Assembly: GCA_951828385.1 (NCBI GenBank)
Contig: OX639973.1
Location: 2,164,470-2,228,469, forward strand
Reading direction: 5' to 3'
From: an uncultured Poribacteria bacterium
GTDB lineage: Bacteria; Poribacteria; WGA-4E; WGA-3G
Length of the DNA: 64,000 nt
Shown here: positions 9,401-59,836 of the stretch, piece after piece
Layout of the letters: each line of letters opens with the position of its first letter
How positions within the stretch are numbered: the stretch's first letter is position 1
The notes under the pieces: generated by a model
What the model saw: only the letters and a program-made list of their open reading frames with translations
What the model was told of the DNA's origin: nothing
Databases searched by the model: none
Position numbers and translations under genes: made by a program

Positions 9401-12064
9401 TCACGCTAAATTATTTTCACCATCGTTCTGCAAAGGTTCGTTGGCATAAATCCATTCGCGGATAGTTTGCATTTCGTCTAAGTTCTCTTGGAGAAAAGCG
9501 TCCTTTGTATAAATGACTTTATACTCAAAGTGAGCATCGGGTTGCAATTTTGCCAGACGTTTTACTGCCTTCTTTTTCGCCACTACATCCGGGTGGCCGC
9601 GTTCGTTTTCAGATTTAATCTCAACGACGTAGAATTCCCCAGTGTTCTTGACGATGACGAAATCGGGAAAATAGCGGTGATAATTGTTATCAGTGCCTTT
9701 GTATTCAAAGTGAAAATCGGTTTTCTTGGTATTCGTCAAGCTTCCGGTAAACAGAAATACTTCAACATCTGCAATAGAGTCATTCAACGTTAACAGAATT
9801 GTCTTAAAAAATTGTTGTTCGGGTCCGCTATCAAAATCGTAAGGCATATAATGAAAACTCACATCGTGGTTGTCATCTAAGTCTTGTTCACTGAGGAGAA
9901 GGTCAGCCTTACTCTTACGCAAGCGCACCTTGTGAACGTAGGAGCCGTCCGTATCATCTTTTTCAAAAAGTAGATTGCCGTCGTCATCGTGGATACGGAT
10001 AAGCGCGAGGTGTTCTGCAATATGTTCCTCAATCACTTCGTAATTTTGCTGCTGGTCTTCCACCTGTTTACATAGCGAATCGAAGTGTGCATAAGGGATT
10101 TGCCCCTCTGGATACAGTTTTTTGAGGTTTTTGAGGGTTTCCATCACAGAGAGGTGATAGTTTGTTGCGAGTCGTCTCGCGAATGTATAGCAATCCGTTG
10201 TCCGATTGGTTATCTCAACTTCGTCCTGCGCGCCTAACGCTGTTAGCGGCGAAGCACCGCGTTGCGTAAAGTCGGGAGTCAGAATACTGCGAAAAGCAGG
10301 TGGAGTCTCTCTAATGTCTGTAGGGATATGCAACTGAATTGCTTTAGGCGTATTTTTCAGCGGGACAACGCGGCGCACCAATTGCATAATTTGTAATTTA
10401 GGCAAATCGGGTTTGCGAATGCGGAGTGCAACCTCTTCCGTTTCCGCGTCTTGTTTACGCAGTTCACCGAGTGTGGTACCGAAGTTTGCCTGTAACTCTT
10501 TATCTAAAATCGTACTGTTTTTTGTATCCAAAAAGATTTTTGCCGTCCGTGTGTTGCCTTTCACTTGACGGAGGCATCGGGTTGAGGCTTGCAAGATAAA
10601 GTTGCTACTGGTCGTCTGTTCCTTGATAAGGGCGCAAGCGAATAGGCTTGGACAATTCCATCCCTCTGTCCCTTTGCCAATAAGGAGAATGATACGTTTC
10701 TGACTGTCAGAGTCGTTCAGTCGGTTGAACTCATCAATCTCGGTTTGACTGGATTTTTGGGTATTAACGAGTATTTGGGTGGTACTTTCTCCGATTTCTG
10801 TGAGTGCGTTTTGGATTTGCTGATGGGAGGCATCTAAATGTTCTTGTGTTCTGAAGTAAAAGGCGATTTTCGCTTTCGCACCATCGGGTAATCCTACATC
10901 ACCGTAGTTATCAAAAAAATCGTTGATAACGCTACTGATTACATCTTCGTCAGGAATAATTCCGATAGGGTACTGAACGATACCGTTGTGAAGACTTTTG
11001 AGAATGTTGTCTTTAATTCCTTCACCGAGACTATACCACGCAACAACCTCTCTAAGCATTTGCCGCTTAGCGTAAGGCGTACCGGTAGTATTGATAACAG
11101 CAACGAGAGGCGTTTTCTCATGTATGTAGTTAACTGTTTCTCGCACACGCTTGAGTTCTTTGTCTATTGTATTGCCGTAAGTATGGTGTGCTTCGTCTGA
11201 AAATATCCCTAAATTAGGCAAACTTGTTATTTTTTGAAGTCGGAGATTTGCCTCTAATTCTGCTTGTTCCTTCTTTTCCTCAAACGCAAATTCTGTCTGA
11301 TTGCTTCGCTTTTTGACGTTTGCCCGCAGTGCTATTTTCTCGGTGTTTGTGACAATGACGTTGAAAGCACTCCCTGCTTGGACTTGAATTTCTTTTGCGC
11401 CGGTTTGTGGATAGGTGATTTTAAGGTTGGCGAGAAAGTCGCGGTGTAGACTGGGCGGTAGAATCTGGTCAAAAGGAACCTCGCTGATTTCACGGAGACT
11501 CTCAATAATCGTTGTGCCGGGGGCAAAGACGAGGGCGTTTTTCATAAATTCGTTTTCGGGATAGCGGAGTGCCATCGCGAATTCGGTTGCGATGATAGTG
11601 CCGATAAGAACCGTCTTACCCGTTCCCATTGCAAGCGCGAAGATATAACTTGGATATGGAAGCGTCACAGCCTCGTAAACCGGGTCAATTCCCTTCCTTT
11701 TAACGAATTCAGGCTCTTCTTTTACTAAGTCAATGAGCTGGTCAATTTTACGAATCAATAATACTTCTTCTGGAGTAATTGGGATGCCGAATGCTTCACA
11801 GAAATCGCGTATATCGCCAGTGTCGTAGTAGTGTCTGTAGAGTTTAACAATATGCGGTGTTTTCAACACTAATCGCAAATACCAATAGAGTTCCAGTGAC
11901 TGGAATTGCGGTTCGCGGAGGTATTTGAGGTGCACACGATCATCTGCTTCGCCTTCAAACTGATAGCGTAGTATTTCTCCGATGAGTGGGTAATCTTGGC
12001 ACGGGTATCCTTCTTTGCGCCAGTTCAGTGTGTCGTCACGTAGTTTTTCAAAAAGGTGTTGCAT
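9401..12064 (-). CDS. res: Type III restriction enzyme Res subunit (DEAD/DEAH helicase-nuclease)
   Basis: An 887-residue superfamily 2 helicase fused to a nuclease. Walker A is AMGTGKT (residues 145-151), Walker B is SDEAHH (289-294), and the helicase C-terminal motif lies around LASTRCLRQVKG-type residues. The last ~90 residues carry a PD-(D/E)XK endonuclease: P800-D801-F, then VVE815-I-K817. The start at 12064 follows AAGGGAA. This is the restriction partner of the Mod gene at 3582-5456. It should translocate or slide on DNA and cleave when two unmodified sites are met. Both motifs are intact, so the enzyme looks functional. Confidence 0.87.
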   Translation of the reverse strand: MQHLFEKLRDDTLNWRKEGYPCQDYPLIGEILRYQFEGEADDRVHLKYLREPQFQSLELYWYLRLVLKTPHIVKLYRHYYDTGDIRDFCEAFGIPITPEEVLLIRKIDQLIDLVKEEPEFVKRKGIDPVYEAVTLPYPSYIFALAMGTGKTVLIGTIIATEFAMALRYPENEFMKNALVFAPGTTIIESLREISEVPFDQILPPSLHRDFLANLKITYPQTGAKEIQVQAGSAFNVIVTNTEKIALRANVKKRSNQTEFAFEEKKEQAELEANLRLQKITSLPNLGIFSDEAHHTYGNTIDKELKRVRETVNYIHEKTPLVAVINTTGTPYAKRQMLREVVAWYSLGEGIKDNILKSLHNGIVQYPIGIIPDEDVISSVINDFFDNYGDVGLPDGAKAKIAFYFRTQEHLDASHQQIQNALTEIGESTTQILVNTQKSSQTEIDEFNRLNDSDSQKRIILLIGKGTEGWNCPSLFACALIKEQTTSSNFILQASTRCLRQVKGNTRTAKIFLDTKNSTILDKELQANFGTTLGELRKQDAETEEVALRIRKPDLPKLQIMQLVRRVVPLKNTPKAIQLHIPTDIRETPPAFRSILTPDFTQRGASPLTALGAQDEVEITNRTTDCYTFARRLATNYHLSVMETLKNLKKLYPEGQIPYAHFDSLCKQVEDQQQNYEVIEEHIAEHLALIRIHDDDGNLLFEKDDTDGSYVHKVRLRKSKADLLLSEQDLDDNHDVSFHYMPYDFDSGPEQQFFKTILLTLNDSIADVEVFLFTGSLTNTKKTDFHFEYKGTDNNYHRYFPDFVIVKNTGEFYVVEIKSENERGHPDVVAKKKAVKRLAKLQPDAHFEYKVIYTKDAFLQENLDEMQTIREWIYANEPLQNDGENNLA

Positions 12065-17113: not shown

Positions 17114-20100
17114 ATGAAAAACAATATGGTAAAGGTCTGGCACATTTTGAATATCATTGGCATACTCACTTTTCCATTCATCTTATGCTCATGTGCGATT
17201 CCAGCATTAAGTACTATTAAAAAAGTTGACAGGCTTTTTTCAGAGGCTGAGGCGTTGGATCATTCTGGATCTTACAACGCAGCTATTGATAAATATAAAG
17301 CCGCCCTCAAAGAATTCAGGAAATCTGGAGTTTTTCAACCTCTTCGTCGACATCTTGATGAGGGTTTCCCAGTCTTTGTCAACGATAGAATTATAAGATG
17401 CTGTTCAAAACTCGCTAATAGTTTTTTTTTAGAAGCTGAAAAGTCATATCATCAGGAAAATTATTCAGAGGCGATTAAAAAATATAAAGTTACTATTAAA
17501 GAACCTGAAAAGCACGGAGTCCCTTATAGCCGCCTTGAAGACATTAGTCCTGATTTTCCGACATCTATGCTCGTTAACTTTAGGATAGCGAGCTGCTATT
17601 CAAAACTCGCTGAACAGTCAGATGATTCTGAAATTCTTTATTCCAATGCAATCACCTATGCCAAAAAAGCTGTCATGTCCAAAACTTATAGCATATATAA
17701 GGCAAAATCCTATTACTTATGGGGCAGCCTTCTCCACAAATCAGGGAAACATGATAAGGCAATACAGAGATTCAGGATGTTTGTTGAATATTTTCCAGAA
17801 AATCCTTTGGTAGCAGAAGCATTGTATCGTATTGGCATTTTTTACCATAACCAAGAAAACTACCTGCTTTCCCGGAAAGCCTTTGAGCAAATTTTGAATC
17901 AATTCCCATCCTCGCGATTTCAAGACGAGGCACAGTATCGAATTGCACAGTCATTTTTTAAAGAGTTGGACTATGAACAAGCCTATGAGAGATTTGTTAA
18001 GGTCTACGAATCTGATTTTCAAATTGAATCTCGGTATTATGCCGCTTACTGCCTTTACCAACTTGGTAAGCATAGTGAAGCTCTCATCCAGTACGTTAAC
18101 TTTACTAGAGCGCATCCCAAAAGTCAATACACTATAGCAGCGCGTATTACTATGGGCAAGATATATTTTAAAAAAAAGGATTACAGAAAAGCACTTTCCA
18201 GTTACCAATTAGCCTTACAAAACACTAAAGAACAACCTCTTAAAATTGAAATTCAGCTAGCTATCGCTGAGGCACACTTCGCCTTAGGAAAGATGGACTT
18301 CGGAAAAAAGGACTACAAAAAAGCACTCACCAATTATCGGTTTGCTTTACGGAACACCGAAAAACAACCCCTCAAAACCGAAATCCAGTTAGCTATGACC
18401 TTTGCCTACCTTAATCACGACGACGCTAAGAATGCCATAGCTACTTGTAAGCGTATACTGTCAGGTACTGAGAGGGATATCGCCACTGTGCTAACCATTG
18501 ATCCAACTGCTGGAGAAAAATTAACTATAGCGAAGGGAATTCAATTCTACCTTGAAGCTGAAAACACTGCTTTTCTTGCAGGTTATAAAGGGGCAGTTGC
18601 TAAATACAAAGCTGCGCTCATTAAGATCCAGAACAGCATTCCAACAACAGTTGGAGCCGAATATCAAGCTGATCTCAATTACATTTTGGGTAACCTTCTC
18701 TATAAGATTGAGAGATTCGAGTCAGCGGAACGGCAACTTACTAAGGTAATTGATGACTTTTCGGACAGTAACTTTGTGGATGACGCGTGGTACGCTATCG
18801 GAGATATGAACTATAAATTACAAAGTTATACAGAATGCCGGGATGCCTTTAGAAAAATTCTGGAAAATTTCCCAAACTCCGATTTGCAGGATGATGCACA
18901 ATATTTCGTTGCAAAATCGCTATTGGAGGAGTTGGACTATGAGGGAGCTTATCTTGCGTTTGATGGACTTACCACTAAGAGATTTCAAAAGTATCCAAAC
19001 TTTCAAGACGATGCAAGGTATTATGCCGCTTATTGTCTAAATTTGCTCGGTAGAGACGATATGGCTACCCGCCGGTATCAAAATTTTCTTGCGCATTATC
19101 CAAACAGTTCATACCGGGTTGATGCGTACTTTGATCTCGGCACAATTTATGCAGGACAGCAAAATTATGAAAACGCCCGTAGTAATTACGCTTTGGCGAT
19201 GCAGCATACAGACGACCAAGCACTCCTCTCTGAAATACAGATGGCTATTGGACATACCCATTACAACCAAGGTGACTACAAAAATGCGATTGTCGCACAT
19301 ACGTCGCTTTTAGAAAAATATCCAGAAAGTGACTTTATCATAGAGGCTAAACTCGGTATCGCTAACAGCCATTTTCGCATGAGAGCATGGCAAGAAGCTG
19401 CTAATGCTTACGAACGCGTCATTAATGAACATCCGGAAGCCACAAATTTTACCCCATATTGTGCCTATCAGGTTGGCGAGGCACATTACGGGTTAGCAAC
19501 CCATCATAGCGAACAAGACAAGACCGAACTGGCAGTGAAAAATTTTCACAAGGCGTTGGAGTGGTATCAGAAAATCATTGATGATTTTCCAGCAGAAGAT
19601 TCCAATAATCAGAGTGAAATCACTGAACTTCTTATCACAAGTCTCACGCGGATGCACAACGACTCAAATGTTTCCAAAGAACTGCAAAGCCTTGCGCAAT
19701 CAAAAAAAGGTGATAGTTACTTAGCTACTGAACAGTATGGAAAGGCTCTCGCTGAGTACACCACCTTTGTTCAGATGTTTCCTAATAGTCCCAGAGGTCC
19801 CTCTGTCCAAGACAGGATTAAACAGGTCCAGGAGTCCATTATTTCTAAGAACTTGCGACAAGAAAAAGTAAGGACGACTGTAGAAGTTTCGATAGAACAA
19901 CAGATTGCCCAAAAAGCCTTAACCTCTACCGTGCTCATACTCACAACGGATGCCACTGGAGATCCAATGGCACTGGGGAGTGGTTTCTTTATCAGCAACG
20001 ACCAGATTGTCAGCAATTGGCATGTTGTTGAAGGAGCAACAACCGCTTATGCATTATCGGTTGATGAGAGAACGAGGTATAAGATTGATGGAATTCTCGC

Positions 20101-20482
20101 AATGAACCCGAAACAAGACTTAGTTATCCTAAAGATTTCTGGAGAAGGCAGCCCTCTACCATTGGGAGATAGCAACATAGCCCAAATTGGTGAGTCTATT
20201 TACGTCACGGGCAATCCCAAAGGATGGACAGGAACCTTCTCTATTGGTGTTATAAGCAGTTTCCAGATGCGTTATGCCGGCAAACGCATCCAGATTACTG
20301 CGCCGGTCTCGCCTGGGAGCAGTGGCGGTCCCGTACTAAACGATAAAGGTGAAGTAATTGGTGTTGTCTACGCTGTCCACGGTGGACCCGATGCTCAGAA
20401 TCTCAATCTTGCTATTCCGGTTAATTATTTGAAGGCACTGCTCAAACGGGTAGGTTCACCTATACCTCTGAGTTCAAGATAA
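17114..20482 (+). CDS. TPR lipoprotein fused to a C-terminal trypsin-like (S1C) serine protease
   Basis: A 1122-residue exported protein. The signal peptide ends in a lipobox LCSC, so C27 is the likely lipidated residue. Residues ~35-870 are many tetratricopeptide repeats of the kind seen in outer-membrane assembly proteins (YRIAQSFF, ALYRIGIFYHNQ, DAQYRIA). Residues ~930-1122 form a chymotrypsin-fold protease with an intact triad: H970 (NWHVV), D1002 (KQDLVIL) and S1070 (GSSGGP). There is no PDZ domain. TPRs may recruit the substrate or assemble a scaffold while the protease cleaves it in the periplasm. GGAGGG precedes the start. A simpler paralog of the protease domain lies at 62959. Confidence 0.85.
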   Translation: MKNNMVKVWHILNIIGILTFPFILCSCAIPALSTIKKVDRLFSEAEALDHSGSYNAAIDKYKAALKEFRKSGVFQPLRRHLDEGFPVFVNDRIIRCCSKLANSFFLEAEKSYHQENYSEAIKKYKVTIKEPEKHGVPYSRLEDISPDFPTSMLVNFRIASCYSKLAEQSDDSEILYSNAITYAKKAVMSKTYSIYKAKSYYLWGSLLHKSGKHDKAIQRFRMFVEYFPENPLVAEALYRIGIFYHNQENYLLSRKAFEQILNQFPSSRFQDEAQYRIAQSFFKELDYEQAYERFVKVYESDFQIESRYYAAYCLYQLGKHSEALIQYVNFTRAHPKSQYTIAARITMGKIYFKKKDYRKALSSYQLALQNTKEQPLKIEIQLAIAEAHFALGKMDFGKKDYKKALTNYRFALRNTEKQPLKTEIQLAMTFAYLNHDDAKNAIATCKRILSGTERDIATVLTIDPTAGEKLTIAKGIQFYLEAENTAFLAGYKGAVAKYKAALIKIQNSIPTTVGAEYQADLNYILGNLLYKIERFESAERQLTKVIDDFSDSNFVDDAWYAIGDMNYKLQSYTECRDAFRKILENFPNSDLQDDAQYFVAKSLLEELDYEGAYLAFDGLTTKRFQKYPNFQDDARYYAAYCLNLLGRDDMATRRYQNFLAHYPNSSYRVDAYFDLGTIYAGQQNYENARSNYALAMQHTDDQALLSEIQMAIGHTHYNQGDYKNAIVAHTSLLEKYPESDFIIEAKLGIANSHFRMRAWQEAANAYERVINEHPEATNFTPYCAYQVGEAHYGLATHHSEQDKTELAVKNFHKALEWYQKIIDDFPAEDSNNQSEITELLITSLTRMHNDSNVSKELQSLAQSKKGDSYLATEQYGKALAEYTTFVQMFPNSPRGPSVQDRIKQVQESIISKNLRQEKVRTTVEVSIEQQIAQKALTSTVLILTTDATGDPMALGSGFFISNDQIVSNWHVVEGATTAYALSVDERTRYKIDGILAMNPKQDLVILKISGEGSPLPLGDSNIAQIGESIYVTGNPKGWTGTFSIGVISSFQMRYAGKRIQITAPVSPGSSGGPVLNDKGEVIGVVYAVHGGPDAQNLNLAIPVNYLKALLKRVGSPIPLSSR

Positions 20483-34145: not shown

Positions 34146-34925
34146 ATGATTCAAGTTTCACATCTCACCAAGAAATACGGACAAAATACGGCAGTTGACG
34201 ACATTAGTTTTGAGGTACAACAAGGTGAAATCGTCGGTTATCTCGGTCCCAACGGTGCTGGGAAAAGCACAACGCTCAAAATGCTCGTAGGCTTGCTGCA
34301 ACCGACATCCGGCGAAATCTCTGTGGCGGGATACAATGCCGAAACGGAGCTGCTTGAACTAAAACGGCACATCGGATACGTGCCAGAAGAAGCGCAACTC
34401 TACGAACACCTCACCTTGGTAGAACACCTTCAGTTGATCGGCAGGCTCTATCATTTAGAGGAGCACCTCATCGCGCAGAAAATAAAAGAACTCGCCAAGC
34501 TGTTTGATATGGCATTTCAGGCAAACCAAAGGATAAGCGGTTTTTCACAGGGAATGCGGCAGAAGTGCATCATTATGTCCGCGCTCATGCACAATCCGGA
34601 TGTCCTGTTTTTAGACGAACCATTCACCAACCTGGATGTCGGAACGGTAACCCTCATGAAAGCGTTACTCCAACGTTTAGCCGAGCTGGGAAAAACGATC
34701 CTCTATTGCACGCACATTCTCGAAGTTGCCGAAACGCTCTGTCCGCGAATCATGATTATCAATGCTGGGAAACTCATCGCCGATGCTCCAGTGGAGGAAT
34801 TGCGCCAGCAGACAAACCAGACTGCACTCAACGAGATTTTTACGCAGCTGACTGACACAACAGGGATTGATGAGAAAACTGAGGAAGCCATTCGGATTGT
34901 GATGGGGGACACCCCGAATGCTTGA
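34146..34925 (+). CDS. ABC transporter ATP-binding protein
   Basis: A 259-residue ABC-2 type ATPase: Walker A GPNGAGKST (34-42), signature SGFSQG (131-136, a variant of LSGGQ), Walker B VLFLDE (153-158) and an H-loop at YCTHILEVAE. GAGGA precedes the ATG by 9 nt. The stop overlaps the first permease gene by 8 bp. It should energise one or more of the three tandem permeases. The divergence of LSGGQ to SGFSQG is common in this ABC-2 branch. Confidence 0.93.
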   Translation: MIQVSHLTKKYGQNTAVDDISFEVQQGEIVGYLGPNGAGKSTTLKMLVGLLQPTSGEISVAGYNAETELLELKRHIGYVPEEAQLYEHLTLVEHLQLIGRLYHLEEHLIAQKIKELAKLFDMAFQANQRISGFSQGMRQKCIIMSALMHNPDVLFLDEPFTNLDVGTVTLMKALLQRLAELGKTILYCTHILEVAETLCPRIMIINAGKLIADAPVEELRQQTNQTALNEIFTQLTDTTGIDEKTEEAIRIVMGDTPNA

Positions 34926-36585
34926 CACTTCTAACAGCAAGTTTTGCAAGCTACGCCAAAAAATAGTAGCAATGCTCGGTGCTTCTCCAACCCAATATAG
35001 ATATCTCCTACAAACCGAAAAGCTGGTCGAAAAGCGAGCATTAGAGGGAAAACGCTTTGTCAACCTGTCACTGGGGTTAACCTGTTTATTCTGTTTCGTC
35101 ATGAGTATCCCCATTGCTTTTATGATGCTCCTTCCTATAAGTGTATTCATGTACGCTGTTATGGGCATTACTATGTCTATGTTCATAGTAGGCATCTGGA
35201 CGATCCCGTACTTTGATATTCTTCTTAGCCCTATAAACTACCCCGTAGTTGCACACACCCCAATTTCATCACGAACCTATTTTCTCGTAAAGTTAACGAA
35301 GATCTTCACCTACACAGTCTTATTGTTGGCCAGTTCAGGTCTATTACCTGCTATTGGCGGCATTTGGCTCCGTGGAGGAGAGGCTGCCGGGTTTCGATTT
35401 CTTTTTCCACTCGTGTACCTACCCATCGTCTTTATTTCTGGTTTTTTCATGATTGGCGTGATGACTACGTTCGCAGGGTACTTGACGAAACTTTATACCA
35501 AAAAAAGCCTCCGAAATATCGCACAATACGCACAGTTTATATTTCCAATGCTTTTTCCGGTGATGTTGATCCTTCTTCCTCACTTACTACCAGAAGATTT
35601 CACATTTGATAAATTAACTTCGACTCTGAAATGGTTTTATGTGCTTCCGAACGGTTGGTTTGCCAGCACAGTATCGGTTGCCCTCGGAGAAACAGATTCG
35701 CGCTCTCTTACTTTAGCAGGACTGGCTGTTGCTTCAACGTTTATTTTGGTATTGGTACCACTTCGGAGTATTGCGAGGAGTTATTCGGAATATCTCTCTT
35801 ACCTATTGGAATCTGGGAGTCGCCAAAAATCCGATTTACAAGTGAAAACGCCGCTACTTGCCAGAATGTTCCCTAACGCCACTATTCGTGCAGGGTTTTG
35901 TCTCGGCACTGCGTATCTGTATCGGGATAAGAGGATCCTGCAACAATTTTTCATTTCTGTTGGGAGCATCATTATGATTGCGGTTTTTTCTGCACAAGAG
36001 ACACTATTTCCGTTGAAGTGGATTCATTATTCCCATGCTATCGGACTAAGTCCAGGCTTCTCTATTATGTTCTGCTTTGTTGGTATGACCTTCGTCGATA
36101 GTTTCATCGCACCCGTGAGATATTCAGAACATTGGAAAGCGTCATGGATGTTAACGCTTGCACCACTTTCAGCACCGAATGACCTATGGCGAGGTGTACA
36201 AGCAACCACGCTCCTCTACCTCGTTGCTCCGTGTACGATTTTATTGTTTTGTATTGCTACTGTTTTTTGGGGAACTTTAGGTATATTTTATATATTACCG
36301 GGGTTAACCATTTTACTCTACTATGTCATCTTTTACCCGAAACCGTCGTCTGGCTTGCCACTTGCAGAAGCGTATGTCCAAAAACGGACAGCTGCAGCGA
36401 TTTGGCTTCCTTTCATCTGTAACCTGCTTGCTATTGGCATCTTCATAGGTATCCAATTTCTAACTAATCTGCTGAATGTTTGGGTTTATTATGGCTTCTA
36501 TTGCGGCACGGTTGTAGGTGGTCTTATCGGTTTTATTTATTTCCTGAAAAAAAATAAACGAGTGGAGGAAACCGTAGATGCTTGA
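34918..36585 (+). CDS. ABC-2 type permease, paralog 1 of 3
   Basis: A 555-residue membrane protein with about 11-12 hydrophobic segments. Shared landmarks with its two neighbours are MLGASPTQYRYLL, LVEKRALEG, YFDILLSPINYPVVAHTPIS, SRTYFLVKLT, LRNIAQYAQF, LPNGWFA and YLSYLLESGSRQKS. The C-terminus FLKKNKRVEETVDA is cytosolic. It starts inside the end of the ATPase gene (ATGCTTGA overlap). It has a 10-residue N-terminal extension (TSNSKFCKLR) that the others lack. Substrate unknown. Confidence 0.83.
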   Translation: MLDTSNSKFCKLRQKIVAMLGASPTQYRYLLQTEKLVEKRALEGKRFVNLSLGLTCLFCFVMSIPIAFMMLLPISVFMYAVMGITMSMFIVGIWTIPYFDILLSPINYPVVAHTPISSRTYFLVKLTKIFTYTVLLLASSGLLPAIGGIWLRGGEAAGFRFLFPLVYLPIVFISGFFMIGVMTTFAGYLTKLYTKKSLRNIAQYAQFIFPMLFPVMLILLPHLLPEDFTFDKLTSTLKWFYVLPNGWFASTVSVALGETDSRSLTLAGLAVASTFILVLVPLRSIARSYSEYLSYLLESGSRQKSDLQVKTPLLARMFPNATIRAGFCLGTAYLYRDKRILQQFFISVGSIIMIAVFSAQETLFPLKWIHYSHAIGLSPGFSIMFCFVGMTFVDSFIAPVRYSEHWKASWMLTLAPLSAPNDLWRGVQATTLLYLVAPCTILLFCIATVFWGTLGIFYILPGLTILLYYVIFYPKPSSGLPLAEAYVQKRTAAAIWLPFICNLLAIGIFIGIQFLTNLLNVWVYYGFYCGTVVGGLIGFIYFLKKNKRVEETVDA

Positions 36586-38197
36586 AAGAATCGTAGAAAT
36601 GCTCGGTGCCTCTCCAGTACAGTACAGGTTGCTGCTAAAAACAGAAAAATTGGTAGATAAGCGGGCACTCGAAGGCAGAAACGACCTATCCAATATGTCG
36701 CTCGCTTTGACCTGTGTTGTCGGATTCATATTCAGTGTTTTATTCACATTTATGCCGTTCGTTTTATCGATGGACACGTTTACCTTCTCACTTATCGGTA
36801 TCACGATGTCTATGGCGATGATAAGCCTCTGGATAATTCCATACTTTGATATTCTTCTTGCACCGATAAACTATCCGGTCATCGCACATACCCCCCTGTC
36901 ATCAAGAACCTATTTTCTCGTGAAGTTGACACAGATCCTCACTTACACGGTTCTGTTATTAGGCAGTTTGAACCTAATGCCTGCTATCGGCGGTATCTGG
37001 GTTCATAAAGGCGATTTTTCTCTGTTCCGACTCCTTTTTCCTGTTGTTTACGTGCCAATCGTCTTTATGTCCGGTCTTTTCACAATTGGCGTAATGACAG
37101 TTTTCGCGGGATATTTGACGAGATTTTACAGCAAGCGGATCCTCCGAAATATCGCACAATACGCGCAGTTTATAGTGCCGGCACTCTTGCCCGTGACGTG
37201 GATACTCCTTTCGCGTCTGATACAATACATTCCAAAAGAGCAATTGGCTTCGGTTCTTAAATGGCTCCACGTGCTTCCGAACGGTTGGTTCGCCGGAACT
37301 GTCTCGCTGATGCTCGGAAAAATAGAACTGCGTTTCTTGATTTCAACAGGACTGACTGTCATATCAACCCTGTTTCTGGTCTTCGTTCCGCTTCGGAGTA
37401 TCGCGCAGCGTTATTCAACATATCTCTCTTATCTCTTGGAATCCGGGAGTCGGCAAAAGGCTAAAATCCGAGTGAAAACGCCGCTGTTTGCGCGAATGTT
37501 CCAAAATAGCATTATCCGTGCGGGACTTTGCCTCTGTGCTGTGTACATACGCCGCGATAGGACGCTGTTGAAGCAACTTTTCGCTGCACTCGGAAGCGTT
37601 CTTATGCTCATAGTCATGGTTCAACAAGGGTGGATGCATCATTCTTTCGCTATTGGATTCAGCCCTGGTTTTTCCATGATGTTCTACTTCGTCGGTTTCA
37701 GTCTCGTTGGCAGTTTCATGTCACCCATAAGATGTTCGGAACATTGGAAAGCGTCGTGGATGTTAACGCTTGCACCAATCCGTGCACCTAAGGACTTGTG
37801 GCGAGGTGTGCAGGCAACGGCTTTCGTCTATATGGTTGCGCCGTGTACCCTCCTTATGCTCTGTATGGCGACCGCTTTTTGGGGCGTTTTAGGCATATTT
37901 TACGTTTTACCGTTAGTCATCATTTTACTCAATTTCGTCGTTCTCTACCCGCAACCGCAATCTGGGTTGCCACTCGCCATAGAGTTTGTCCAAAGCCAGA
38001 TGTCAGGCGAAACTCTAATTCCTTTTTTATCAAGTCTCTTTATCACTGGTGTCTTCGTAGGCATCCAATTTCTAACATATCTGCTGAATATATGGGTCTA
38101 TTACGGCTTCTATTGTATCACCGTTATGGGCGGTCTTATCAGTTTTATTCATTTTCTACAAAAAAATAAACAAGTGGAGGAAATCGTAGATGCTTGA
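36578..38197 (+). CDS. ABC-2 type permease, paralog 2 of 3
   Basis: A 539-residue paralog with the same segment order: MLGASPVQYRLLLKTEKLVD, YFDILLAPINYPVIAHTPLS, LRNIAQYAQF, LPNGWFAG, YLLESGSRQKAK and QKNKQVEEIVDA. It starts with the same ATGCTTGA 8-bp overlap, and GGAGGAAA lies just before it at the end of the previous gene. The protein is more diverged in the middle (YIPKEQLASVLKWLHV). It is probably a subunit of a heteromeric exporter with its neighbours. Confidence 0.83.
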   Translation: MLERIVEMLGASPVQYRLLLKTEKLVDKRALEGRNDLSNMSLALTCVVGFIFSVLFTFMPFVLSMDTFTFSLIGITMSMAMISLWIIPYFDILLAPINYPVIAHTPLSSRTYFLVKLTQILTYTVLLLGSLNLMPAIGGIWVHKGDFSLFRLLFPVVYVPIVFMSGLFTIGVMTVFAGYLTRFYSKRILRNIAQYAQFIVPALLPVTWILLSRLIQYIPKEQLASVLKWLHVLPNGWFAGTVSLMLGKIELRFLISTGLTVISTLFLVFVPLRSIAQRYSTYLSYLLESGSRQKAKIRVKTPLFARMFQNSIIRAGLCLCAVYIRRDRTLLKQLFAALGSVLMLIVMVQQGWMHHSFAIGFSPGFSMMFYFVGFSLVGSFMSPIRCSEHWKASWMLTLAPIRAPKDLWRGVQATAFVYMVAPCTLLMLCMATAFWGVLGIFYVLPLVIILLNFVVLYPQPQSGLPLAIEFVQSQMSGETLIPFLSSLFITGVFVGIQFLTYLLNIWVYYGFYCITVMGGLISFIHFLQKNKQVEEIVDA

Positions 38198-39818
38198 CAA
38201 AATCGTAGCAATGCTCGGTGCCTCTCCAACACAGTACAGGTATCTCCTGAATACAGAGAAATTGGTCGAAAAGCGAGCTTTGAAAGGGAATCGCTGGGTC
38301 AACCTATCGCTTGGTTTGAGCTGTGGAATTTTCTTTATCGTCGGACTTTCGAGCGCGTCTATGCTACTTGTCTCTTTGAACGTGTTCACCTACGCGCTGA
38401 TCTGCATCACCATGTCTATGGCGCTGATAGGCATCTGGACGATCCCATACTTTGATATTCTGATTGCGCCTACACATTACCCTATTGTAGCGCACGCTCC
38501 CGTTTCATCGCGCACCTATTTTCTTGTGAAACTAACGCAGATACTCACTTACACTGTGCTGTTGTTAGCCAGTTTCAATCTGCCACCGGCGATCGCGGGT
38601 ATCTGGATTCATGTCCGAGAGTCTTCTCAACTCCTATACCTTTTTCCGCTCGTCTATCTGTTTATCGCGTTTATGTCTGGTTTCTTTACGATTGGCGTGA
38701 TGACAGTCTTCGCAGGATATTTGACGAAACTCTATACCAAGAAGAGTCTCCGAAATATCGCGCAATATGCACAGTTTATATTTCCTGCGCTTTTCCCTAT
38801 GGTATGGATTCTCCTCCCCCGTTTAGCACCATCATTATCAGATGGCGGAATGGATAAATTAACCGAATTTGCGAAATGGTTCTATGCCCTTCCGAACGGT
38901 TGGTTCGCCGGAGCCGTATCGCTTGGCGTAGGAGAAATAGGATCACCCCATATTGTGAGAAATCTGATTTTAACAGGATTGGCTATCGTTTCAACACTTA
39001 TTTTGGTATTCGTTCCACTTCGGAGTATCGCGAGAAGTTATTCAGAATACCTCTCTTACTTGTTGGAATCTGACAATCAACAGAAATCCGAGTTGCGGGT
39101 GAAAATACCGCTATTCGCGAAGCTGTTCCGAAATTCCGTTATCCGTGCTGGATTTTGTCTCGGTTCAGCATATATGTGCCGCGATAAACACATATTGCGA
39201 CAACTTTTCAGTAATTTAGGTGCCATCATTATACTCGTGATTTTATTTATGCAAGACGAAACGTTTTCTTTCAAGTGGGTTCAAGACGCTTACGCTATCG
39301 GCTTAAGTCCAGGTTTCTCGGCGATATCCTGCTTTGTTGGTGTAGGTTTTATCAGTAGTTTCATTTTACCTGTCAGGTATTCAGAACACTGGAGGGCATC
39401 GTGGATGTTAACGCTCACACCGATCTCAGCCGCGCATGATTTGTGGCGAGGTGTACAAGCAGTTGCACTTCTTTACATTGTCGCCCCATGTACGCTTCTT
39501 ATGCTTTGCATTGCGACCGTTATTTGGGGCGTTTTAGGCATTTTTTACGTCTTACCGGCATCAATCATTTTACTTTATTACGTCATCTTTTACCCAAAAC
39601 CGGTATCTAACTTACCACTCGCCGAAGAATTCGTCCAAAAACGGATGGTCACCGGAGCTTGGATACCAGTTGTATTAAGTCTCTTGGGTATTGGTGCCTT
39701 CGTGGGTATCCAATTTTTGATTCATCTACTGAATATGTGGGTTTATTACGGTTTCTATTGTGTTATGATCGTAGCAGGATTTATCGGTTGGCTCCACTTT
39801 TTTAGAAAAAAATCGTAA
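38190..39818 (+). CDS. ABC-2 type permease, paralog 3 of 3
   Basis: A 542-residue paralog beginning MLDKIVAMLGASPTQYRYLL and again overlapping the previous gene by ATGCTTGA. It shares SRTYFLVKLTQILTYTVLLL, KSLRNIAQYAQFIFPALFP, LPNGWFAGAV and LRSIARSYSEYLSYLLESDN. It lacks the charged VEExVDA tail of the other two, ending WLHFFRKKS. It is closer to paralog 1 than to paralog 2 in several blocks (KLYTKKSLRNIAQ), which suggests successive duplication or gene conversion. Confidence 0.83.
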   Translation: MLDKIVAMLGASPTQYRYLLNTEKLVEKRALKGNRWVNLSLGLSCGIFFIVGLSSASMLLVSLNVFTYALICITMSMALIGIWTIPYFDILIAPTHYPIVAHAPVSSRTYFLVKLTQILTYTVLLLASFNLPPAIAGIWIHVRESSQLLYLFPLVYLFIAFMSGFFTIGVMTVFAGYLTKLYTKKSLRNIAQYAQFIFPALFPMVWILLPRLAPSLSDGGMDKLTEFAKWFYALPNGWFAGAVSLGVGEIGSPHIVRNLILTGLAIVSTLILVFVPLRSIARSYSEYLSYLLESDNQQKSELRVKIPLFAKLFRNSVIRAGFCLGSAYMCRDKHILRQLFSNLGAIIILVILFMQDETFSFKWVQDAYAIGLSPGFSAISCFVGVGFISSFILPVRYSEHWRASWMLTLTPISAAHDLWRGVQAVALLYIVAPCTLLMLCIATVIWGVLGIFYVLPASIILLYYVIFYPKPVSNLPLAEEFVQKRMVTGAWIPVVLSLLGIGAFVGIQFLIHLLNMWVYYGFYCVMIVAGFIGWLHFFRKKS

Positions 39819-52918: not shown

Positions 52919-53018
52919 TAATGCGCATTAAATTTTTTTAACAGCGATTTTGGATCCCTGCAAAATACATCAAAAAGGGCATGCTGTTAACCGAACACCA
53001 AAAGGAGATATAATAACA

Positions 53019-54047
53019 ATGAACAGGCTTGAGTCACGCCTCTTCTGGCGGATAACACTACTCGCAATCGTCGGCATCTTGGCAACATCTTTTACTGTTG
53101 CAGCAAATTGGGATATCCTTCAAAAACAGGACCCCGAAATTCGGGACTATATGTCGATCTCGTTCACAAGCACAAAAAATGGTTGGGCAGTCGGCGTCTC
53201 ACCACTCGAATTAGACTATCCCGGTTTTGTCGGATATACGACAGATGGTGGAGCAACATGGAATAAAGCCGAAATTGATGTGGATGCTCAACTCGCCAAC
53301 CTCTATTTTCTTGATGACAAGCACGGCTGGGCAATCGGTGAAAAAGGCAAGATTGTCGCCACAACTAACGGTAAAGATTGGGAAATACAAACCAGCAAGG
53401 TTGACAACCCGCTTAAAGGAATCTACTTCGTCAATAAAGATGTAGGATTCGCTGTCGGGGCCAACGATACCATTCTCTCAACACAAACCGGTGGACGTAC
53501 GTGGAAGGTCCTTCAAGGTGGACAAATCGGTGCCGTTGGTGATGATGAAGCAACAATGTACAATGCCGTTCAGTTCATTGATGAATCCACAGGCTGGGTT
53601 GCTGGTGTACACCTTGTTCCTCAAGTCAGTCAAAATAGCGTGATTCAGAAAACGATGGATGGCGGACAGACTTGGGATGCACAAGAGACTGGCGCTGAAG
53701 ATGTGCTTGAAGACATCTTTTTCTTAGATGGTAAGCACGGTTGGGCAGTCGGTGAAAACGGTCTTATTCTCCACACAAGCAATGGCGGCGACAGATGGAC
53801 AGTCCAGATGAGCGGCACTGAAGAAACACTGAGAAGCATCCAATTCGCTGACAAATATATGGGCTGGGCAGTCGGTGGAGACTTAGGCGTCGGTGTGATT
53901 GTACATACCAATGACGGTGGTAAAAACTGGGAAGTCCAAGATCCGGGTGATGACATGGTCCAACGGTTCCGGATGAATAGTGTTTTCATTTTAGATAAAC
54001 GGGTCTGGTTAGCAGGCGGAAACGGCGTAGTCTTGTTAGGAAAATAG
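53019..54047 (+). CDS. Exported Ycf48-like beta-propeller protein
   Basis: A 342-residue protein with an export signal (FWRITLLAIVGILATSFTVA). It has about six propeller blades, each marked by a GWAVG-type turn: NGWAVGVS, HGWAIGEK, VGFAVGAN, TGWVAGVH, HGWAVGEN, MGWAVGGD. Threonine/tryptophan-rich strands such as TTDGGATWNK and TNDGGKNWEV separate them. The fold is that of Ycf48/BNR proteins, used as assembly factors or surface proteins. There is no sign of photosynthesis here, so the role differs from cyanobacterial Ycf48. AAAGGAG 11 nt upstream decides the start at 53019. Confidence 0.83.
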   Translation: MNRLESRLFWRITLLAIVGILATSFTVAANWDILQKQDPEIRDYMSISFTSTKNGWAVGVSPLELDYPGFVGYTTDGGATWNKAEIDVDAQLANLYFLDDKHGWAIGEKGKIVATTNGKDWEIQTSKVDNPLKGIYFVNKDVGFAVGANDTILSTQTGGRTWKVLQGGQIGAVGDDEATMYNAVQFIDESTGWVAGVHLVPQVSQNSVIQKTMDGGQTWDAQETGAEDVLEDIFFLDGKHGWAVGENGLILHTSNGGDRWTVQMSGTEETLRSIQFADKYMGWAVGGDLGVGVIVHTNDGGKNWEVQDPGDDMVQRFRMNSVFILDKRVWLAGGNGVVLLGK

Positions 54048-54475: not shown

Positions 54476-54512
54476 AAAATAGGTGAAATGGCTAATAGAC
54501 GGAGGTAGAATT

Positions 54513-55685
54513 TTGGAAACATCCACATTCGCAACGCGAATGAGTCGATTGGGAACAGAGTCCGCTTTTGAGGTGCTTGCTAAAGCGAAGCAGCTTGAGG
54601 CACAGGGCAAAGACATCATCCACCTTGAAATAGGACAACCGGATTTCCCAACACCGAGGAATATCATTGAGGCAGCATACCAAGCAATGAAGGACGGTCA
54701 TACCGGTTACTGTCCATCTGCAGGTGTACCCGAATTTCGAGAAGTCGTCGCGGAACATATAACCGATACGCGCGGGATTACAATACACCCTGATGAGGTT
54801 ACGGTAACACCCGGCGCGAAGCCGATTATCTTCTTCACAATTCTTGCCTTAATAGACGACGGCGATGAAGTGATCTATCCTGAACCAGGTTTCCCTGTCT
54901 ATGAGTCCGTTATTGACTTCATCGGCGGAAAAGCGGTGCCACTCCCCCTTCGCGAAGAGGTAGATTTCCGGTTCCGACTCGAAGACCTCGCCGACGCAAT
55001 CTCCGATCGAACAAAACTGCTAATCCTCAATTCACCTCAGAATCCGACAGGTGGGATACTCACCCTCGAGGACCTTGAAGCGATCGCTGAATTGGCACAG
55101 AAACACAATTTTTATCTACTGACAGACGAAGTCTATTCACGCATCCTCTACGAAGGTAAACATCATAGTGTCCTGAGTCTCCCCGGCATGAAGGAACGGA
55201 CAATTTTGATCGAAGGGCATTCTAAAACTTACGCGATGACAGGGTGGCGACTCGGTTACGGCATTGCACCGCAGGCAATCGCTGATAAAATTACCCAGTT
55301 AACTATTAACTCGAACTCGTGTACGGCTACCTTCACACAACTTGCTGGAATAGAGGCACTCACGGGCCCCCAAACTTTTGTCACAGAAATGGTTACGGAA
55401 TTTCAGAAACGGCGTGATGCAATTGTGGACGGACTCAATGCAATTGACAGAGTCAGTTGTATCAAGCCTCTCGGTTCATTTTATGTGTTTCCAAACGTGA
55501 CGCAATTGCCCCTTTCATGTGAAGCGCTCGCCGATTACATCATGGAAGCGGCAGATGTAGCACTTTTACCCGGAACCGCCTTTGGTCAGTATGGTGATGG
55601 GTATCTCCGGCTTTCGTACGCGAACTCCTTAGAGAACATCCAAGAGGCATTAAGCAGAATGGAAACTGCAATCTCAAAATTGTAA
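54513..55685 (+). CDS. Class I/II pyridoxal-phosphate aminotransferase (aspartate-type)
   Basis: A 390-residue fold-type I aminotransferase: LEIGQPDFPTP near the N-terminus, GHTGYCPSAGVPEFREVVAE, NSPQNPTGGILT, and the PLP lysine in GHSKTYAMTGWRLGY. A C-terminal LRLSYANSLENIQEAL includes the substrate-carboxylate arginine. The resemblance is to aspartate/alanine-type subgroup Igamma enzymes. I start with a TTG at 54513 because GGAGGT lies 6 nt upstream. The frame from 54483 has no binding site. The gene lies just downstream of the 422-bp RNA-like element, which may have separated it from an earlier promoter. Confidence 0.9.
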   Translation: METSTFATRMSRLGTESAFEVLAKAKQLEAQGKDIIHLEIGQPDFPTPRNIIEAAYQAMKDGHTGYCPSAGVPEFREVVAEHITDTRGITIHPDEVTVTPGAKPIIFFTILALIDDGDEVIYPEPGFPVYESVIDFIGGKAVPLPLREEVDFRFRLEDLADAISDRTKLLILNSPQNPTGGILTLEDLEAIAELAQKHNFYLLTDEVYSRILYEGKHHSVLSLPGMKERTILIEGHSKTYAMTGWRLGYGIAPQAIADKITQLTINSNSCTATFTQLAGIEALTGPQTFVTEMVTEFQKRRDAIVDGLNAIDRVSCIKPLGSFYVFPNVTQLPLSCEALADYIMEAADVALLPGTAFGQYGDGYLRLSYANSLENIQEALSRMETAISKL

Positions 55686-55837: not shown

Positions 55838-56782
55838 ATGGAACTTATCCGCAAGGAAATACAAAAATACCAGAAAGCTACCGCACGTATCCCAGCAAGT
55901 ACGACAAACCTCGGACCCGGGTTCGATGTGCTCGGACTTGCCCTCCAACTCTATAGTGAAGTCACGTTGGAAACCACCGAAACCGACACCCAAGTCGTTG
56001 TTAGCGGCGTAGATGCTGATAAAATACCAAGTACGCCAGAACATATCGCGTTTCAAGCGGTAGAACTTGTCTTTGACCGAAGTGGCACTAAACGTCCAAA
56101 AGGCTTCAAATTGCAGATAGAGAATGGAATACCTGCGATCCGTGGATTAGGTGGGAGTGGGACAGCCATTCTTGGTGGGTTACTCACGGCGAACGCCCTG
56201 TGCAGTTCTCCGTTCTCTGACGTAGAACTCCTCAATTTCGCAACAGAATTAGAAGGGCATCCGGATAACGTTGCCGCTTCATTGTATGGCGGCATCGTCG
56301 TCTCAGCACAGGAGAATGCCGAAGTGCATACAATTCGGTTGGAATGTCCACCTGTACTTTCAGTTGTGCTTGCTATCCCGGATTTCCCGCTATCAACGGA
56401 ACAAGCGCGCGGGGTACTACCAACTTCAGTAGGTTTCGCAGATGCCATATACAATACAAGCCGAAGTACATTGTTAATCGCAAGTATTGCCACAGGGCAA
56501 TTTGAGATGCTCCGTATCGCTATGAAGGATAGATTGCATCAACCCTACCGGGCCGCCCTGATCCCAGGGTTTGACGATGTCGCAAAAGCTGCTACCACCG
56601 CTGGCGCACTCAGTGTCGCTTTGAGCGGCGCGGGACCGACTGTTGCAGCCTATTGTCTGGAGCATACAGAACAAGTGGCGGAGCAGATGCAGTCTGCCTT
56701 CAGCAAACATCAGATTGCATCTGATATTAAAATTCTAAAGCCTGATGTTGATGGCGCGAGTCTTCACGTTGAAAACCCCTGA
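55838..56782 (+). CDS. thrB: Homoserine kinase
   Basis: A 314-residue GHMP-family kinase. Motif 1 is ARIPASTTNLGPGFDVLGLA. The ATP-binding loop is IRGLGGSGTAILGGLL, a variant of the usual GLGSSAA. Motif 3 is ALSGAGPTVAAY. EGHPDNVAASLYGG is the typical homoserine kinase segment. It phosphorylates homoserine on the route to threonine. There is no strong ribosome binding site before the ATG at 55838. The aminotransferase upstream could supply the aspartate branch, but a shared operon is doubtful because of the inverted repeat between them. Confidence 0.9.
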   Translation: MELIRKEIQKYQKATARIPASTTNLGPGFDVLGLALQLYSEVTLETTETDTQVVVSGVDADKIPSTPEHIAFQAVELVFDRSGTKRPKGFKLQIENGIPAIRGLGGSGTAILGGLLTANALCSSPFSDVELLNFATELEGHPDNVAASLYGGIVVSAQENAEVHTIRLECPPVLSVVLAIPDFPLSTEQARGVLPTSVGFADAIYNTSRSTLLIASIATGQFEMLRIAMKDRLHQPYRAALIPGFDDVAKAATTAGALSVALSGAGPTVAAYCLEHTEQVAEQMQSAFSKHQIASDIKILKPDVDGASLHVENP

Positions 56783-56974: not shown

Positions 56975-59836
56975 ATGTCAAATTTTCATACAGAAAACAT
57001 TGCATCAATACTGAACAAATTCGATTCTAACATGGACCAAGGGTTGAGCGCAGAAGCCCTTGAGAAAGCGGAAGCGCGATACGGCAAAAACGAGTTTGCT
57101 TCAGAGAAAAAAATATTTCCGCTTAAGGCGTTTCTGGAACCGCTACTGACATGGCGTATCATCGTTTTGGCACTCGCAACGGTCATCTTGGCCGCCTTTT
57201 TTTCCAGCGGCACGAGCAGCGTTACCCTTCACACAGTCGGTATCGTTGCAGCAGTGTTAGTTATCCATATCGCATACGCGGGGGCGATAGTGTATCGCAC
57301 TTGCAGTCGGAATGCCAATATTGGCAAACTCATGGCGCATCGTATCAAAGTGATTCGACAAGGAAAATTTGAAAAATGTGCACCCGAGGACATTGTACCC
57401 GGCGATTTACTCTCGTTGACTGCAGGGGATTACGTGCCTGCGGATGCCAGAATCATTGAATCTGAAGGGATTATGATCGATGAATCGGCACTCTTCGGCA
57501 CCGAGGGACCCGTACAGAAAATAAGCACGGATATTCCAGAACCTGCCTTACCACCAGAAAAACAGAACAATATCGCATTTGGCGGAACATACGTCGTAGC
57601 AGGACATGGATTCGCAATCGTTGTGAAGACTGGAAAACAGATAGAAATATGGAAGCAACATCAAGATGCCCCCCCGGTATCTATAACGAACACTCTCGCT
57701 GAAAACGAAACACAGGATTTAAATACCATAATAAAAATAGGAGGCATAGTTGTCGCAGCTATAGCTGTCGCCATCAGTTGGTGGTTTGAATATCAGAATC
57801 GAGTTACCGATTGGCAGTCCTTAATCCTTCTCGGCTTGCTATTCGCACTGGCATCTGCACCGGGAAATGTTATTGGATTGCTCCGATTGTCGTTTTCTAA
57901 ACATGCCGAAAAATTAAGGGAAAAAGGGATCACACTCCGCAATTCAAGCAGCCTTGAAAAATTGAGTCGCATCACCCTCTTTTGTGCAAATGAAAATGGA
58001 CTGGCGACGACGCGTGCCCTAACAATCTCCAATCTTTTCGTTGATGAACAACTCGTTGATGGTAATACGTGGCGAACATGGTTGGATTCCCTGAAGGAGC
58101 TTTCCGCCACAGAACGACAGAAAGTCGTTGCAGCGATACCACAAGGTGGGAAAATTCCGCAAGGTGCCCCGCACTTAGTGTTCACTGCTGGACTTGGCAC
58201 CTCTGACGGGCGGAATATGCCGACCGCAGCGACTTCCGAAGCTGAATCTAACGAGACAGCACCTTCACCCAAGGCTACTATCCGAAAGAATATGGAAAGA
58301 CTCGGCTATCAATTCGATAGTGTCAAGGCTAAACTCCCTTTGGTGGATGCATACCCTTCTACACGTAACTATGGGTACCAAATGCAAGTGTTTGAGTCAG
58401 CGCCAGAGGACTATCTTAATGTTATTTTTGGAGACGCACGGACAGTACTTGACACCTGTGGTTCCGTACTTGTTAATGGCGAAATTACACCCCTTTCGGA
58501 CGACAAGTATGAAATGTATCATGAAATCATAGGCTATTTGCTTAGCACCAAATCCCAGGTTTATGGCGTCGCCTTTCATTCCTCTGATGTGATTCTGAAG
58601 CCACAAGAAATGGAGGACAATCCTATCTTCTTAGGATTTATGAGCTTCTCTATCAGCAATGATGAGGAAACGAAAACAGTTCTGAAATCCAGTCTTGACA
58701 CCGGTCTTAAAATTATCCTCATCTCGGAAGGTAAAGAGCAAGAGACTGTTGATTTGGCGAAAGATCTCGGCCTTGTTCACAACCGGAAAGCAGTCGCATC
58801 CAGAGAAGAACTTGACGCAGTTCCCCGTGAACAAATCGACACCGAAACAGCAAACTGGTTTGCTTATTCGCAGCCAACTTGGGAACAGCGTCGGAATATC
58901 GTCCTGAGTCTAAAGCGTCAAGGACACGCCGTAGGATTTTTGGGCCAAAATAGAACCGATCTACGCGCAATGAATGTCGCCGATATCGCGCTTGCTAATA
59001 ATGCACACGCATCACATGTCGTTCAAGCCACTGCCGATGGCCTAATCAGCAATAAAGGCTTTCAAGCCGTAAGGGATGCGCTACTTCATGCCCGTGAGGC
59101 GTATCACAACGCAGCTGGATTCCTACGTTGGAATCTTTCCTGTACGCTCTCCCTACTTTTCACACTTACTATTGGAACGGTACTGCACTACCTCTATAAA
59201 ATGCCGATGCCGTTGACGCTAACGCAGATAATTTGGGTGCAATTTCTCACAACTTTACTACCATCATTAGGGATAGGCGCAGAACAGATATTCGCTGATG
59301 CCGATAATAGTGACTGGCACCACCGACCGACGCTCTTTTCAAGAGCGCGTTTTCTCTCAAGAACAACAGGCATAGATATTATTTGCCGTGCCCTGACTAT
59401 TAGTCTGATGGCACTCATCCCGTTCTTCTTTATGTTGTGGCGTTCACCCGCATTGTCGGATACGCTCGGCGTTTCGACACTCATGAGAGAGGTATTATCC
59501 GTCGGAAATGCTGGAACTCCAATTTCCCCGGATATCGCGGTCGCGCGAACAGTCGTATGTACGACGCTCATCCTGACGCAATTGGCGACATGCTGGCAAG
59601 CTTTGCGCTACCCATGGGAATCACTCTTTCAAAGAATATTCGCAAATTCCCGGCTCATCGTTATCTCCCTCGTCATTATCGCACTTCATCTGACAACACT
59701 CTATATCGAACCTGTCGCGCAGTTTTTAGGGATGGCACCACTCAAATGGGAATGGCAATGGACGCTCCTGTTTAGCCTGACGTTGTTCTTATTGCCACTA
59801 AATCTGGCGATAAACTCGCGCCCAGACGACGATTAA
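56975..59836 (+). CDS. P-type ATPase homologue lacking the catalytic motifs (pseudoenzyme)
   Basis: A 953-residue protein with the full P2-type ATPase layout: a cation-ATPase N-domain, A-domain, M1-M10-like segments and a C-terminal six-helix block. Every catalytic motif is altered. The phosphorylation motif DKTGT reads N339-E-N-G-L, so the acceptor aspartate is asparagine. TGES reads FGTE near 174-177. The M4 PEGL reads PGNV near 296-299. The hinge GDGVND reads GQNRTD. The rest of the fold is well conserved and the frame is uninterrupted, so it is maintained, presumably as a sensor, regulator or scaffold rather than a pump. Confidence 0.85.
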   Translation: MSNFHTENIASILNKFDSNMDQGLSAEALEKAEARYGKNEFASEKKIFPLKAFLEPLLTWRIIVLALATVILAAFFSSGTSSVTLHTVGIVAAVLVIHIAYAGAIVYRTCSRNANIGKLMAHRIKVIRQGKFEKCAPEDIVPGDLLSLTAGDYVPADARIIESEGIMIDESALFGTEGPVQKISTDIPEPALPPEKQNNIAFGGTYVVAGHGFAIVVKTGKQIEIWKQHQDAPPVSITNTLAENETQDLNTIIKIGGIVVAAIAVAISWWFEYQNRVTDWQSLILLGLLFALASAPGNVIGLLRLSFSKHAEKLREKGITLRNSSSLEKLSRITLFCANENGLATTRALTISNLFVDEQLVDGNTWRTWLDSLKELSATERQKVVAAIPQGGKIPQGAPHLVFTAGLGTSDGRNMPTAATSEAESNETAPSPKATIRKNMERLGYQFDSVKAKLPLVDAYPSTRNYGYQMQVFESAPEDYLNVIFGDARTVLDTCGSVLVNGEITPLSDDKYEMYHEIIGYLLSTKSQVYGVAFHSSDVILKPQEMEDNPIFLGFMSFSISNDEETKTVLKSSLDTGLKIILISEGKEQETVDLAKDLGLVHNRKAVASREELDAVPREQIDTETANWFAYSQPTWEQRRNIVLSLKRQGHAVGFLGQNRTDLRAMNVADIALANNAHASHVVQATADGLISNKGFQAVRDALLHAREAYHNAAGFLRWNLSCTLSLLFTLTIGTVLHYLYKMPMPLTLTQIIWVQFLTTLLPSLGIGAEQIFADADNSDWHHRPTLFSRARFLSRTTGIDIICRALTISLMALIPFFFMLWRSPALSDTLGVSTLMREVLSVGNAGTPISPDIAVARTVVCTTLILTQLATCWQALRYPWESLFQRIFANSRLIVISLVIIALHLTTLYIEPVAQFLGMAPLKWEWQWTLLFSLTLFLLPLNLAINSRPDDD

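Follow-up and report, generated by a model that had tools for sequence, protein, structure and literature searches.

Poribacteria, a phylum of bacteria associated with sponges, carry a membrane protein that preserves the complete architecture of a P-type ATPase and has lost the residues on which pumping would depend. In the 64,000-nucleotide stretch analyzed here (the window), taken from a host genome assembled as one contig of 6.66 Mb, this protein is encoded by an intact reading frame (Table 1), and it is very probably a pseudoenzyme that descends from a P2A Ca2+-ATPase and extends through the phylum. P-type ATPases are usually considered dead without their phosphorylated aspartate. Read across the class, the full pump architecture is retained under selection, and the residues needed to bind ATP, form the aspartyl-phosphate, remove it again and coordinate Ca2+ are missing class-wide.

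The reading frame opens with an ATG at 56975 and closes with a TAA at 59834-59836, comprising 953 codons with no internal stop; both coordinates and frame agree exactly with a preliminary description of the gene as a full-length P-type ATPase. Three P-type domains score above their Pfam cut-offs, PF00690 (N-terminal), PF00122 (A domain) and PF00689 (cation C-terminal), whereas the HAD P-domain model finds no match in the same search. The best NCBIfam model is TIGR01522, the PMR1-type Ca2+-ATPase (E = 2e-57), although the score of 194.6 bits does not reach the curated equivalog cut-off of 798.3. Profile-profile alignment with hhalign against active SERCA-type pumps extends over 876 columns (E = 7e-123). 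The solved structures matched are SPCA1, LMCA1 and SERCA, with LMCA1 (6zhf, E = 5.5e-146 with the family profile) and SPCA1 the best among them. Judged by sequence comparison, the homology to P2A ATPases is far above chance. The layout is that of SPCA/SERCA-like P2A pumps, with an N-terminal domain, an A domain, a split P domain bearing the N insertion, and a C-terminal membrane bundle.

Table 1. Features of the pseudopump gene and of the conserved genes upstream of it (window coordinates; all on the forward strand)
Feature	Position	Strand	Basis
Ycf48-like beta-propeller protein, first of the conserved gene string	52950..54047	+	Pfam PF14870, E = 2e-29; synteny
Class I/II (aspartate-type) aminotransferase	54483..55685	+	Pfam PF00155; synteny
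thrB homoserine kinase, which directly precedes the pseudopump in most members of the class	55838..56782	+	NCBIfam TIGR00191, 281.7 bits, over cut-off; synteny
Pseudo-P2A-ATPase, 953 aa; A, P and N domains and ten predicted membrane helices	56975..59836	+	ORF, Pfam, NCBIfam, hhalign
A-domain TGES, degenerate: F174-G-T-E177; E183 position is Thr176	57494..57505	+	alignments
M4 PEGL, degenerate: P296-G-N-V299; Ca2+ ligand E309 position is Gly297; Pro296 invariant class-wide	57860..57871	+	alignments
Phosphorylation loop DKTGT, degenerate: N339-E-N-G-L343 (Asp to Asn339)	57989..58003	+	alignments
Nucleotide-binding KGA, degenerate: F485-G-D487	58427..58435	+	alignments
HAD motif II TGD, here S584-E585-G586; S/T584 mostly retained, 585 acidic in nearly all pseudopumps	58724..58732	+	alignments
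HAD motif III, K684 position is Arg639; K/R except in two tallied family rows	58889..58891	+	alignments
GDGVND, degenerate: G657-Q-N-R-T-D662; D703 position is Gln658, D707 position is Asp662 (retained)	58943..58960	+	alignments
M5 ion-site positions: N768 is Thr724, E771 is Leu727	59144..59155	+	alignments
M6 ion-site positions: N796 is Gln756, D800 is Thr760	59240..59254	+	alignments

Numbers such as D351 follow SERCA, and the motif residues are given the roles which we take to be theirs from established SERCA knowledge. The degenerate motifs sit at canonical positions in alignments to SPCA1 and to active bacterial SERCA-type pumps and in profile-profile alignment, and the earlier readings of Asn339, FGTE, PGNV and GQNRTD are thereby confirmed. 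Misalignment of the motifs is ruled out by conserved flanking residues (C337, G342, G657, D662 and P296) that anchor every motif in several independent alignments. The losses listed in the preliminary description are correct, but the list was too short: KGA (now FGD), DPP, TGD and the M5/M6 Ca2+ ligands have also gone, and the five ligands E309, N768, E771, N796 and D800 read G, T, L, Q and T. Its view that all catalytic motifs are destroyed holds for the motifs, which are degenerate, but not for every active-site residue, since D707 persists as D662 and K684 as the conservative R639.

The protein shares full-length homology with the P2A Ca2+-ATPases (SPCA/PMR1, Listeria LMCA1, SERCA), with A, P and N domains and helices in the same order. 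In contrast to these pumps, its class lacks the phosphorylation-loop Lys, the TGES Glu, the first Asp of GDGVND, the KGA Lys and the Ca2+ ligands, and the phosphorylated Asp itself is gone in the genus and in several other lineages. A non-catalytic nature is strongly supported by this pattern of residues; such a protein would be unable to run the Post-Albers cycle and is presumably not an ion pump.

Of the 83 genomes of the class, which are mostly MAGs produced by separate studies, 82 contain an orthologue; the sole genome without a match, G065, is 81% complete. With one divergent copy (L091) from the deeper lineage G060, 83 pseudopumps were extracted, fragments included, of which 78 span the four key columns. 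Within the genus, each of the 38 genomes has an orthologue of full or nearly full length that is free of internal stops (relatives at 68-95% identity), and orthologues in the rest of the class lie at about 18-65% identity. D351 and K352 occur together in none of the 78 scorable copies, and D703 likewise in none (0/78). E183 is absent from all scored copies, the lone apparent Glu (L074, LFIESATP) being an alignment shift around an insertion. The preliminary description had named DKTGT and TGES in sister genomes as the mark of an isolated decaying copy or a sequencing artefact, and its proposal withstands this check, for every one of the 38 genus genomes, the window's included, is degenerate: K352 is Glu in 38, D351 is Asn in 37 and His in one, and D703 is Gln or Glu in 38. 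The same class of changes recurs across the phylum. Position 351 may be D, N, H, S, E or Q across the family; outside the genus, many relatives keep Asp351 but lack K352 and D703.

The pseudopump is the only Cation_ATPase_C protein in each class genome where that model matches. An intact P2 pump elsewhere in the host genome was sought and none was found. The sole other P-type ATPase found there (L087, G000:C1:961000-967500) has 797 aa, resembles P1B metal pumps and keeps TGES, DKTGT and GDGIND intact. Beyond the phylum, a search of plasmid records returned annotated P-type ATPases at 20-27% identity as its best matches.

Rates of substitution were estimated by the Nei-Gojobori method with Jukes-Cantor correction, and the median dN/dS of the pseudopump over within-genus pairs (dS 0.05-1) is 0.126, a value from pairs that share branches and are not independent. 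In a matched gene set the pseudopump stands at 0.122, with the aminotransferase at 0.045, thrB at 0.078, the ycf48-like gene at 0.131, DUF6785 at 0.052 and uppS at 0.049. The gene is under purifying selection. By region, the P-domain pieces are lowest (0.060 and 0.078) and the A/M1-M3, M4 and N regions lie at 0.14-0.16; constraint is therefore strongest in the domain that lost its catalytic residues. The degeneracy of every canonical motif might bring to mind a decaying pseudogene or a sequencing artefact, a reading with next to no credibility, because 82 of the 83 genomes of the class retain an open frame, dN/dS stays at about 0.12 with the P domain most constrained, and gene order is retained. 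The case that the preliminary description made against recent decay and for a conserved pseudopump is borne out by this spread of orthologues and by median dN/dS values of 0.12-0.13.

Conservation by column, measured as entropy in a 30-sequence family alignment, gives a picture of the same protein at residue level. The most variable columns include E309, N706, D627, D601, T353 and E183 (entropy percentiles 0.84-1.00; E309 0.99, N706 1.00, D627 0.98, E183 0.84). Among the most conserved are the fold residues P308, G516, G354 and G702, together with D707, and the membrane helices M5, M6, M8 and M10 belong to conserved regions. S/T584 (24/30), K/R639 (29/30) and D662 (29/30) retain HAD motifs II and III and the second Asp of motif IV. 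Position 585, equivalent to G626, is acidic in 28 of the 30 sequences and in the deep copy L091 as well, whereas it is Gly in every active pump. This pattern looks like a P-domain pocket that has been rebuilt rather than one that has simply eroded.

The losses were stepwise, not simultaneous as had been proposed at first. The copies from the class fall into a single clade, and L091 and the class copies together split from the active P2A pumps and the P1B outgroup with support of 97/99. An AU test speaks against grouping L091 with the active P2A pumps (p = 0.035), and the degenerate copies come out as monophyletic relative to active pumps, both results being subject to the caveat of long branches. 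The Asp/non-Asp state at position 351 changed at least six times on the tree, and K352 was lost in the class but is retained in L091. The likely order is that E183 and D703 went first, then K352, and then the Asp repeatedly. Among the lineages sampled, the two deepest are alone in having intact P2A pumps; all others have the pseudopump as their sole P2-type protein. One of these pumps is L095 in G061. G060, whose gene content calls for caution as it is listed as 6% contaminated, also carries two half-pumps with intact motifs on separate contigs (L092, L093) and an intact P3-like pump (L094).

The pseudopump lies at the end of a conserved gene string, in which a ycf48-like gene, an aminotransferase gene and thrB precede it on the same strand. 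The string is found in family f1 and recurs, sometimes with gaps, in most of the other families belonging to the class. This order is retained down to about 24% pump identity. The spacing from thrB to the pump is 1-403 bp where the string is kept and 192 bp in the window, and the genes of the string may be co-transcribed. A promoter and terminator scan found such sites no more frequently than in shuffled sequences. In f1 a DUF6785 gene follows downstream in convergent orientation. Exceptions are G050 and six genomes of genus g5 (family f4), in which the pseudopump lies away from the string, and G051, which has only the ycf48-like neighbor, 83 bp upstream, and no thrB. In g5 the pseudopump has moved off thrB at loci L063, L065-L068 and L072; by eye, the genes upstream at L063 resemble an RNase E/G-type protein and ribosomal protein L27.

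Further genes were noted in other parts of the window. At 34146-39818 (forward strand) an ABC-type ATP-binding protein of 259 aa is followed by three overlapping tandem paralogues of 539-555 aa, the first 61% identical to the second and 66% to the third, with no Pfam match; the arrangement suggests an ABC exporter whose membrane subunit has been triplicated. A 1122-aa protein at 17114-20482 (forward strand) combines a long TPR array with a C-terminal trypsin-like peptidase domain, and an 887-aa reading frame at 9401-12064 (reverse strand) has no Pfam match.

Like pseudoenzymes generally, the pseudopump combines a conserved fold, lost catalytic residues and purifying selection. The preliminary description knew of no family with this set of changes. 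A partial analogue does exist in human TMEM94/ERMA, a protein of P-type architecture in which TGES is absent and GDGVND is replaced by GSSANL (PMC12134183, PMC13322241), and the known pump structure most similar to TMEM94 is SPCA in the E2P state (PMC12134183). This closest described analogue is eukaryotic and retains the Asp-Lys pair (DKQGIL), whereas the pseudopump reads NENGL and has lost the Lys class-wide and the Asp in many lineages. The 60 top-ranking PDB matches of the pseudopump do not include TMEM94. The activity of TMEM94 is disputed: a cryo-EM study reports no ATPase activity (PMC12134183), whereas ERMA is reported to mediate ATP-dependent Mg2+ uptake that requires D427 (PMC13322241). 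Among the open-access papers searched, none links the term "P-type ATPase" to "pseudoenzyme" or "pseudo-ATPase", and none deals with bacterial pseudo-P-ATPases. A term search of the Palmgren review of P-type families (PMC10654040) turned up neither "inactive" nor "TMEM94", nor any passage about a family of pseudo-pumps.

The ERMA report raises the prospect that the poribacterial protein is a non-canonical active pump, with another residue replacing the Asp or with a weak cycle as claimed for ERMA/TMEM94, so that ATP-driven transport goes on. ERMA also lacks TGES and GDGVND, and the pseudopump retains D662, K/R639 and S/T584 and, in many relatives outside the genus, Asp351. This prospect is nevertheless very unlikely, given that position 351 varies whereas D427N abolishes uptake by ERMA (PMC13322241), that K352, D703, E183 and K515 have gone together with the Ca2+ ligands, and that the other group detected no ATPase activity in TMEM94 (PMC12134183). 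A passive or secondary transporter would share the loss of catalysis with our reading and differ in the job performed: the membrane domain would pass an ion, a lipid or a neutral metabolite either downhill or by coupling to a gradient, and the cytoplasmic domains would serve as a cap that regulates it. The conserved regions that include M5, M6, M8 and M10 fit such a role, as does the lipid seen in a gorge near M4 of human TMEM94 (PMC12134183). The M5/M6 Ca2+-site positions are uncharged and fixed within the genus (T724, L727, Q756 and T760, each 38/38; position 309 is not fixed), which suggests a defined new site. However, the core Ca2+ positions in M4-M6 hold no conserved acidic residue and nothing independent hints at a substrate, and we regard transport of this kind as unlikely.

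A bolder form of our reading is that the sole P2-type pump of the phylum would have been made into a dedicated non-catalytic membrane sensor or scaffold, with P-domain pocket and ion site rebuilt, tied to threonine/aspartate-family metabolism, and that it would be a prokaryotic, independently evolved counterpart of TMEM94. We regard this form as possible, though less likely than not. Residue retention and gene neighborhood point, tentatively and with real doubt, to a membrane-embedded scaffold or sensor as the specific mechanism. A small ligand or a partner would bind to the remodeled pocket (S/T584, the new acidic 585, K/R639 and D662) and to the A and N domains; binding would cause a change of shape that is passed on to the M4-M6 bundle, and this change may in turn regulate a membrane partner or the adjacent enzymes of the aspartate/threonine pathway. 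The AlphaFold model (alignment of 26 close relatives) was poor, with pLDDT 45 and pTM 0.43, and the pocket geometry is accordingly a putative one.

In almost all known Poribacteria, a former Ca2+-type pump has probably been converted into a non-pumping membrane protein. Annotation pipelines could call such proteins calcium pumps and thus predict Ca2+ export falsely in this phylum. Through this family, the dispute over TMEM94/ERMA could also be approached in bacteria. Selection has retained the P-type fold phylum-wide while catalysis and ion binding went stepwise, and living lineages preserve the intermediates, first Asp without Lys and then Asp lost. With the fold retained and these intermediates preserved, the function of a P-type fold without ATP becomes testable.
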